A DNA stretch of 35,087 nt. Source: Methyloversatilis sp. XJ19-49 (GTDB taxonomy: Bacteria > Pseudomonadota > Gammaproteobacteria > Burkholderiales > Rhodocyclaceae). The position numbers and the translations under genes are program-made. The notes beneath the pieces were generated by a model. That model was given only the letters and a program-made list of their open reading frames with translations, made no database searches and had not been told where the DNA came from. This document shows positions 7,822 to 28,797 of the stretch, one piece after another. Position 1 is the first letter of the stretch. Each line of letters opens with the position of its first letter. The stretch lies in contig NZ_JANINI010000014.1 in assembly GCF_024580145.1 (NCBI RefSeq), positions 90,085-125,171 of the forward strand. Direction: 5' to 3'.

Positions 7822-11207
<3,386 letters not shown>

Positions 11208-27284: not shown

Positions 27285-27908
27285 ATGTTCCCGGATCGAC
27301 TGATCATCGAACTTGATCGCGCGCTGCGCACTCTGGCGGCACCCGCACGAACCGCACGCCCGATTCCGGGTTCCGAACTGCCGGAGCCGGATCTCGACGA
27401 CGGCCAGCGTCGTCATGTAGGTGCTCTGATGCGCATCAACCATGTGGGCGAGATCTGTGCCCAGGCGCTGTATCAGGGGCAGGCGCTGACATGTCGCGAT
27501 CCATCTGTTCGCGATGCGTTGCGTCAGGCGGCCATCGAGGAGACCGAACATCTGTGCTGGACTGCGTCACGCATCGGGGAACTCGGTGCTCGGACCAGCC
27601 TGCTGAATCCGCTCTGGTATGGCGGTGCGTTGCTGGCGGGCGTTACCGCCGGACTGGTCGGCGACAAGTGGAATCTGGGTTTCCTGATGGAGACAGAAAG
27701 GCAGGTCGAGGCGCACCTGCAAGGGCATCTGGATCGACTGCCGGCCGCTGACCAGAAATCCTGGAGGCTGCTCGAACAGATGCGGCAGGACGAGCGCCAG
27801 CACGCGCGCCTTGCGGAAAGGCTGGGCGCAGCAGACCTGCCGGCGCCCGTCCGGGCTGCGATGCGTGCGTCGTCGTCGGTGATGACCAGACTCGCTTACC
27901 ACGTATGA
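27285..27908 (+). CDS. coq7: Coq7-type demethoxyubiquinone hydroxylase
   Basis: A 207-residue diiron monooxygenase that hydroxylates the ring of 2-polyprenyl-3-methyl-6-methoxy-benzoquinol, a late step in ubiquinone synthesis. It replaces the flavin enzyme UbiF of E. coli. Diiron ligands are visible: E56 in NHVGEICAQ, the EETEH pair (E86 and H89), METERQVEAHL and RQDERQHARL. A hydrophobic mid-segment may dip into the membrane. ATG follows the CNP1 stop directly (TGAATG), implying translational coupling. Confidence 0.95.
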   Translation: MFPDRLIIELDRALRTLAAPARTARPIPGSELPEPDLDDGQRRHVGALMRINHVGEICAQALYQGQALTCRDPSVRDALRQAAIEETEHLCWTASRIGELGARTSLLNPLWYGGALLAGVTAGLVGDKWNLGFLMETERQVEAHLQGHLDRLPAADQKSWRLLEQMRQDERQHARLAERLGAADLPAPVRAAMRASSSVMTRLAYHV

Positions 27909-27920
27909 CGGCGCCTGCGA

Positions 27921-28343
27921 TCAGGCAGGCGTTTCGATGATTTCCCAAGTGTGTTCGATGCGCGCCGTCTGGCCGAGCATGATGGAGGCCGAACAGTACT
28001 TCTCGGCAGACAGATGGATCGCGCGCTCGATCATTTCCGGTTTCAGCTGCCGCCCACTGATCTTGAAGTGGAACCCGATGCGGGTGAATACCTTGGGGTC
28101 TTCGAGTGCTCGGTCTGCCTTGAGCTCCACTTCACAGCCAGTGACCGCCTGACGACTTTTCTTCAGTATCAGCATGACATCGAAGGCTGTGCAGCCTCCG
28201 GTGCCGGCGAGCAGCAGTTCCATGGGTCGCGGTGCCATGTTGCGACCGCCGGCTTCCGGCGCGCCGTCCATATTCAGCATGTGGCCGGAGCCCGTCTCGG
28301 CCACGAAGCTCACGCCGTCCAGCCACTTCACGACACATTCCAT
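27921..28343 (-). CDS. yhfA: OsmC/YhfA family peroxide-defence protein
   Basis: A 140-residue OsmC-fold protein, closest in pattern to E. coli YhfA (VKWLDGVSF, MDGAPE, PMELLLAGTGGC, LSAEKYCSASIML). The two reactive cysteines of the fold are C51 (GGCTAFD) and C117 (EKYCS), as needed for thiol-dependent peroxidase chemistry, though YhfA substrates are not defined. AGGAG lies 8 bases before the ATG. It converges on coq7 with a 12-base gap. Confidence 0.9.
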   Translation of the reverse strand: MECVVKWLDGVSFVAETGSGHMLNMDGAPEAGGRNMAPRPMELLLAGTGGCTAFDVMLILKKSRQAVTGCEVELKADRALEDPKVFTRIGFHFKISGRQLKPEMIERAIHLSAEKYCSASIMLGQTARIEHTWEIIETPA

Positions 28344-28375: not shown

Positions 28376-28591
28376 ATGCTCAGACGCAATGAATCCGCGA
28401 GCGCCGGAATTGTTGCAACGCGGCACGAGTTGAGTGGCAATGCGAAGTAATCCGCATTTTAGTAGGGATGATTCATTGGCTGACGAGTGGCTAGCCTGCA
28501 AATTATTGAAAAATATAGTTATTTGCGGCCGTGGGTCAGTATGGGTCCATATTTCGGATGCGTCACATTACTTGTGCGACGCAAAAAATTC

Positions 28592-28620
28592 TTGCTTACG
28601 CGGGTCGGCTGGACAATAAT
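28592..28620 (+). promoter_or_regulatory. Sigma-70 promoter of the second candidate small RNA
   Basis: TTGCTT (28592-28597), 17 bases, AATAAT (28615-28620). The -10 matches five of six and the -35 three of six consensus bases at ideal spacing. Predicted start near 28627. The surrounding 180 bases are distinctly AT-rich. Confidence 0.55.
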
Positions 28621-28626
28621 CAGGTC

Positions 28627-28753
28627 AAGTTTCGAGAACGATCGTTCATGTGGAGCCTGCCGGCAGCTCCGCGATCGTTTCTCCGCAGGTGTCTCCTCCA
28701 CCCTCCTCCTTTGGTGTGGATTTAGCGCGACTCAATGAGTCGCGCTTTTTTTA
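28627..28753 (+). ncRNA. Candidate small RNA with CCUCCUUU anti-Shine-Dalgarno loop
   Basis: An RNA of about 127 bases with a promoter on one side and a strong terminator on the other, and no protein-coding gene between. Hairpin 1: AACGATCG/CGATCGTT (28637-28644, 28672-28679), inner stem GGAGC/GCTCC. Hairpin 2: TCCACCC (28697-28703) pairs with GG-T-GTGGA (28713-28720, one bulged T), loop TCCTCCTTT. Hairpin 3 is the terminator. The second loop holds CCUCCUUU, identical to the 3' end of betaproteobacterial 16S rRNA. A further CTCCTCC stretch precedes the stem. The rplM promoter lies beyond the terminator, so this is not the rplM leader. A Shine-Dalgarno-blocking role is inferred. Confidence 0.68.
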
Positions 28754-28755
28754 TT
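28724..28755 (+). terminator. Rho-independent terminator of the second small RNA
   Basis: AGCGCGACTC (28724-28733), loop AAT, GAGTCGCGCT (28737-28746), then seven T and ATT. A 10-bp perfect stem with an excellent T tract, just upstream of the rplM promoter. Confidence 0.9.
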
Positions 28756-28768
28756 CAGGCGTCGAGCA

Positions 28769-28797
28769 TTGACACGCCTGACTCCGCGGGCTATATT
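28769..28797 (+). promoter_or_regulatory. Strong sigma-70 promoter of rplM-rpsI
   Basis: Consensus TTGACA (28769-28774), 17-base spacer, TATATT (28792-28797). Predicted start near 28804 gives a 40-base leader containing a small hairpin. Confidence 0.85.

Follow-up and report, generated by a model that had tools for sequence, protein, structure and literature searches.

A conserved RF02278 small RNA between osmC and rplM of Methyloversatilis sp. XJ19-49, with relatives at rplM beyond Betaproteobacteria and a PhaR-operator-like box at its promoter

The window, a stretch of 35,087 nucleotides from Methyloversatilis sp. XJ19-49, carries the gene order coq7-osmC-sRNA-rplM. The upstream neighbours are coq7 (27285-27908, plus strand; NF033656, PF03232) and the OsmC family gene osmC (27921-28343, minus strand; NF008009, PF02566). 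Downstream lies rplM, encoding ribosomal protein L13 (28844-29272, plus strand; TIGR01066, PF00572). An earlier note on this DNA had placed a promoter, a terminator and an independent rplM promoter in the gap between osmC and rplM, and all three were found. The predicted sigma-70 promoter of the sRNA (TTGCTT at 28592-28597, a spacer of 17 nt, AATAAT at 28615-28620, plus strand) is a weak match (8/12), below the listing threshold of the promoter scan. The top-scoring pick in a later scan was another 8/12 site, GTCACA-16-AAAAAT. TTGCTT-17-AATAAT was favoured because a locus from the same genus (L030) keeps its hexamers and spacing unchanged. Of the 55 betaproteobacterial copies, 48 have a promoter-like site of at least 8/12 at a distance of 35-150 nt before the core; in control regions further up the count was 6/55. 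Transcription is expected to start near 28627 and would run to the intrinsic terminator (28724-28752, plus strand), a 10-bp stem AGCGCGACTC-AAT-GAGTCGCGCT at 28724-28746 followed by a T run. After this terminator, rplM has its own promoter, TTGACA-17-TATATT (28769-28797, plus strand), which scored 11/12 in the promoter scan. Although open frames cross the region, a small-protein reading was rejected by inspection: the leader sequence is variable and the terminator part differs in length.

The earlier note had not recognised the RNA, and the proposed Rfam scan changed this. Using cmscan, the core at 28690-28753 (plus strand) matched RF02278 (Betaproteobacteria_toxic_sRNA) with 66.7 bits against a gathering cut-off of 50 (E 1.7e-11), over model positions 1-64 of 64. 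By this match the window RNA is a member of an already described family. The family layout of two hairpins, the second being the intrinsic terminator, with CU-rich unpaired segments, was found in the window RNA, as was the neighbourhood of the S17/NcS27 orthologue group, with coq7/osmC on one side and rplM on the other. The window RNA is the sole RF02278 match above cut-off in its own genome; the next best reached 35.7 bits. This second, weaker family copy (L003 1501-1566, minus strand; G000:C42:81285-81350) is flanked by fbp and a CbbR-like LysR gene. It has a loop other than CCUCCUUU and, 115 nt upstream, a TGCACTGCA box. In the same bacterial family, RF02278 matches at E<=0.001 were obtained in 96/101 genomes and matches above cut-off in 75/101. 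The corresponding numbers for the same order were 158/250 and 93/250. Elsewhere in the window (7824-7912, minus strand), Rfam identified RF02837, an anti-hemB sRNA, with 63.6 bits against 49.5.

C/U-rich segments of Rhodobacter CcsR and of RsaE/RoxS pair with ribosome binding site (RBS) regions. The same is described for the Neisseria NmsR sibling RNAs (PMC5688073). The window has no Rfam match at cut-off to any of these families; L128, a relative from the gammaproteobacterial set, reached 30.3 bits with NmsRb, where the cut-off is 52. Closer in build are the 'double-hairpin' RNAs NcS27 (also bdhR1), ncS03, ncS05 and ncS62, which like the window RNA have two CU-rich segments, a loop hairpin and a terminator. 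Four family members are reported in Herbaspirillum (PMC7011215). NcS27 of B. cenocepacia is 92 nt long and can be processed; its overexpression attenuates growth, and expression of its reverse complement has the opposite effect (PMC5688073). Growth impairment on overproduction is published for Burkholderia members of the family (PMC5688073). Two Burkholderia loci (L070 and L077) resemble the window in having the RNA between osmC and rplM, but differ from it in leader sequence and length and in lacking the strict PhaR-like box, described below, near the promoter. L077 is probably the NcS27 locus, because its predicted transcript of about 91 nt agrees with the published length and the genes flanking it point the opposite way from the sRNA, an orientation also reported for NcS27.

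A further characterised relative is S17 of B. pertussis, a 190-nt RNA that is processed by RNase E at GU|GU to 67 nt and depends on Hfq (PMC11722255). S17 represses BP2158 via pairing, and compensatory changes restore repression; its deletion alters about 91 genes (PMC11722255). S17 and the window RNA both lie beside coq7 and have a conserved 5' segment and loop; a long primary RNA with a GU|GU cut site, as in S17, is predicted for the window. For S17, adjacency to coq7 is reported and adjacency to rplM is not mentioned (PMC11722255). In contrast to the 190 nt of S17, the primary RNA of the window would measure about 126 nt, and its processing and targets are assigned by analogy. The transcription unit of about 127 nt that the earlier note had described can be seen in the sequence; judged from S17, however, it is probably only the precursor of a mature form of about 63 nt. 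Judging by the GU|GU site of S17, RNase E may cut at a GUGU at 28689-28692 (plus strand). The predicted leader hairpin (28634-28683, plus strand), variable in sequence among relatives, would then probably be removed by processing. Three hairpins had been proposed, and the predicted folds contain them, the first being this variable leader.

The fold of the RNA was analysed against shuffled sequences. The 63-nt core gave a z of -6.07 and the 128-nt RNA a z of -4.66, and in both cases 0/200 shuffles were equally stable. The core carries two anti-Shine-Dalgarno (anti-SD) segments. Site 1, the 5' segment UCUCCUCC (28692-28699, plus strand), is mostly unpaired in the predicted core fold and lies 5' of the loop hairpin. 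Site 2 is presented by a predicted hairpin at 28697-28720 (plus strand) in a 9-nt loop, UCCUCCUUU (28704-28712). As had been pointed out, this loop repeats the last bases of the 16S pattern GCTGGATCACCTCCTTT, namely CCUCCUUU; the pattern occurs once in the own genome. The idea of a free-standing RNA that pairs with SD sequences agrees with the published mode of S17 and NcS27, although Site 1 as a second pairing segment had been missed. In the gammaproteobacterial alignment, 7/8 pairs of the terminator helix were changed on both sides. The loop helix had no covariation support in this alignment, and 3/5 of its pairs were invariant. Leaders of 55 nt were also folded singly. The gammaproteobacterial leaders had a mean z of -2.25, with z < -2 in 30/55 compared with 3/53 control windows; the betaproteobacterial ones had a mean z of -0.97, with z < -2 in 9/49 compared with 1/49 controls. 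The window's own 55-nt leader alone gave -0.92. RNAalifold predicted no leader pairs in the consensus of the aligned gammaproteobacterial leaders, so that the signal came from the leaders folded singly. These folds suggest that gammaproteobacterial leaders tend toward a hairpin directly before the core, a feature that appears to be new. In the alignment of the gammaproteobacterial loci (A3), the start region after TTGACA is strongly conserved (TATTAGAAAAT..CTTACAT.CTGATT), and in several loci the end of this region supplies the 5' arm of the leader hairpin.

Directly upstream of the -35 hexamer, a PhaR-operator-like palindrome was found, TTGTGCGACGCAA at 28572-28584, with TGC-GAC-GCA at 28575-28583. 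In S. meliloti, the PhaR consensus core is YGC-RNY-GCR, one of the listed sites is ACATTGTGCGGCGCACAAAGT, and PhaR represses the sRNA MmgR (PMC12542648). The window box fits this consensus, which is alphaproteobacterial, and gives the sRNA promoter a putative TGC-RNY-GCA operator as in the PhaR regulon. Among the betaproteobacterial copies, 43/55, the window's included, carry TGC-RNY-GCA at 40-150 nt before the core (shuffle mean 1.78, maximum 5). The half-extended form with a TTGTGC or GCACAA arm was present in 39/55 copies (shuffle mean 0.04, maximum 1). Fourteen different box centres were counted, and therefore the box is not one frozen copy. The strict box was absent from 12/55 betaproteobacterial copies, L070 and L077 among them, and was present in only 2/54 gammaproteobacterial loci.

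The own genome has one PhaR gene and two phasin loci. Two boxes surround a TATAAT in one of the phasin promoters; no strict box was found upstream of the second phasin locus. The half-extended box occurs five times in 1.04 Mb of this genome, once at the sRNA promoter. Another half-extended box, TGCACTGCACAA, lies in the window at 10671-10682, intergenic and beside a GC-rich inverted repeat, and a further one was seen near 94815 of G000:C3, directly before an ABC-transporter-like substrate-binding gene (named by eye). The arrangement proposed for the window RNA, an sRNA promoter with a PhaR-like site, has its counterpart in S. meliloti MmgR, which is under PhaR (AniA). MmgR is an alphaproteobacterial RNA reported to act on phasin expression, and is likened to the window RNA by regulation alone.

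As a control, regions 240-350 nt upstream of the core were scanned, and the strict box was found in 18/55. A binned count revealed that a second box cluster lies at -310 to -200 (24/55), with 0-3/55 per 110-nt bin beyond -300. This cluster faces osmC, and PhaR possibly controls osmC as well. The cluster also speaks for a different reading, in which the boxes near the sRNA promoter are sites of another regulator or serve the divergent osmC, and the identification with PhaR relies on a motif described in an alphaproteobacterium. Against it, 43/55 copies carry the box within 40-150 nt of the core and the window's box adjoins the -35; the second family copy of the own genome likewise has a box, although it lies far from osmC, and one own phasin promoter has two. 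We regard such a non-PhaR origin of the boxes as a serious but somewhat doubtful possibility. The data suggest PhaR control as a proposal for the betaproteobacterial branch, a testable lead that appears to be new. Of the papers on relatives, PMC5688073 describes the regulator as unknown, and PMC11722255 postulates a repressor. PhaR is not named in the main texts of PMC5688073, PMC11722255 and PMC4603805, and a literature search of partial coverage found no paper on PhaR control of the RF02278 family. Possibly the box corresponds to the 'common upstream motif' in Fig. S3 of PMC5688073.

Possible targets were surveyed in 1.04 Mb of the own genome with crude gene calling and starts picked by SD match (844 starts). 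Contiguous matches of at least 7 bases were obtained for Site 1 at 37/844 starts and for Site 2 at 43/844; control windows within genes gave 0. These matches mostly say that SD sequences can be reached, and the test is partly trivial, the starts being SD-selected. Pairing beyond the SD core revealed no clear excess: the true flank gave 4, the median of 64 flanks was 2 and the best 6. By analogy with MmgR, phasin was considered as a target, and a 6-nt match, GGAGAC, was found before one phasin start. The missing excess beyond the SD core, the identity of CCUCCUUU with the 16S end and the attenuated growth on NcS27 overexpression (PMC5688073) would all suit a decoy role, in which the RNA imitates the 16S rRNA tail and lowers translation initiation in general; this would also explain the 'toxic' name. 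However, deletion of S17 affects about 91 genes and not all, repression is restored by site-specific compensatory changes, and S17S hardly affected growth of E. coli and was not similarly toxic there (PMC11722255). A general decoy is thus very unlikely.

The position of the RNA was compared among 29 other loci of the same bacterial family. The exact 23-nt core was present in 28/29; the remaining locus (L013) carries one extra T. On the upstream side osmC was found in 28/29, and rplM followed on the same strand within 1.5 kb in 23/29, leaving 6/29 without it. In L009, L011, L013, L014 and L033, the sRNA core and the osmC side are kept with no rplM within 1.5 kb, an arrangement that resembles the one reported for S17 beside coq7. 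Conservation of the loop bases in relatives had been named as a test of the RNA, and the RNA passed it: in the 23 rplM-linked loci, the core (-2 to +30) was identical in 22, and the leader and post-terminator DNA had a mean ungapped identity of 28%, about the level of unrelated DNA. In all 48 rplM-linked betaproteobacterial loci other than the window, the core (-2 to +23) had a mean identity of 97% and was identical in 38, and the Site 1 region (-2 to +8) was identical in 47. Named rplM loci were searched in addition, and in 25/80 the core, allowing up to 4 edits, precedes rplM on the same strand. These include Thauera, Azonexus, Dechloromonas, Tepidiphilus, Cupriavidus and Burkholderia, as well as Paraburkholderia, Herbaspirillum, Noviherbaspirillum, Pseudogulbenkiania and Chitiniphilus among others. 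No such core was found in 55/80, some of which hold little upstream sequence.

We then turned to the class level, with a draw of 274 genomes consisting of the own genome, 2 labelled as the same order and 271 others. RF02278 matches at E<=0.001 were obtained in 80 of the 271 other genomes, all labelled as the same class. None of the matches in these 80 genomes reached the RF02278 cut-off, the best having 48.7 bits. RplM was located in 76 of the 80 genomes; in 54/76, rplM follows a match on the same strand at a distance of 90-691 nt, and in 22/76 it does not. When 20 of the 54 rplM-linked loci were scanned against all Rfam families, 0/20 had a match at cut-off. In a permissive Rfam scan of ten gammaproteobacterial loci, RF02278 came first in each, at the core. 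By sequence, the gammaproteobacterial rplM-linked RNAs would thus be relatives, and not members, of RF02278.

A gammaproteobacterial covariance model was built from 33 of these sequences, none from the order of the window. In the window, this model matched the window RNA and nothing else (50 bits, E 4.6e-12), and matches were obtained in 121/274 class genomes. Outside the order, among the matches listed (116 genomes), RplM was located in 111 and an rplM-linked match in 77, from 53 families; as many as 33 of these 77 had also served for training, and the 54/76 above is the count free of training overlap. Two genomes with matches (G435 and G551) were left out of the linkage count. A further 26 matches of at least 45 bits were not linked to rplM, and thus the RNA is also present elsewhere in genomes. 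At the phylum level, matches were found in 15/150 genomes. Seven of these lie outside the class, all with weak matches (best E 2.4e-5), and in the 2 where RplM was checked it was not adjacent to the match. One family (f210) gave weak matches in four genomes, none near rplM. In two loci, L137 (G487:C83) and G474:C1, a tandem pair of RNA copies was seen upstream of rplM. The gammaproteobacterial extension of the RNA at rplM is well supported by these searches and appears to be new; no paper on a gammaproteobacterial version of the RF02278 RNA was found in a literature search of partial coverage.

The adjacency to rplM, from which a link between growth and translation control had been suggested, is real and widespread. 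A link through rplM itself found no support, since rplM as a target has a contiguous match of at most 3 nt to either segment. It is also very unlikely that the RNA is a terminated leader, or attenuator, through which the rplM-rpsI operon would control ribosomal protein synthesis in cis. In favour of this, the RNA precedes rplM on the same strand in the window, in 23/29 same-family loci and in 54/76 genomes outside the order. Against it, a strong promoter of rplM's own follows the terminator, 6/29 same-family loci lack rplM within 1.5 kb, S17 beside coq7 is published as a free-standing sRNA (PMC11722255), and conservation is highest in the anti-SD core and not in a terminator/antiterminator pair. 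A link to carbon state is better supported than a growth link via rplM, by the published targets of relatives and by the PhaR-like box.

Taken together, the window RNA is very probably a trans-acting sRNA of the RF02278 family that is processed, pairs with RBSs and blocks translation, with a promoter that is probably repressed by PhaR in Betaproteobacteria. Its elements, family membership, conservation, synteny and boxes can be read from the DNA; processing, Hfq binding and repression by pairing are published for relatives; for Methyloversatilis sp. XJ19-49 itself we infer expression, targets and PhaR control. After transcription, RNase E would probably cut off the leader and leave about 63 nt. 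The two CU-rich segments, in the 5' tail and in the hairpin loop, would pair, probably with Hfq, with the purine-rich RBS of selected mRNAs. Translation would be blocked by this pairing, and the genes affected would mostly serve uptake and catabolism, as in the relatives. The betaproteobacterial promoter would probably be repressed by PhaR, a sensor of PHB granules, and the carbon storage state would thereby set the level of a translational brake. In a broader reading, this is an old anti-SD sRNA anchored at coq7/osmC-rplM across much of Gammaproteobacteria (GTDB, in the wide sense), mostly outside the RF02278 of Rfam, to which the betaproteobacterial branch has added a PhaR-controlled promoter, so that carbon storage sets the brake on uptake and catabolic genes; we see the chances of this whole reading as evenly balanced.

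In itself the RNA belongs to a known kind and is nothing unusual for Betaproteobacteria. Retention of an sRNA at one locus in many families would show a fixed pairing sequence under changing leader and promoter control, and the wider distribution would allow RF02278 to be extended in Rfam. The PhaR operator, if true, offers an answer to the regulator question left open by PMC5688073 and PMC11722255, and would tie PHB storage to the translational control of nutrient uptake.
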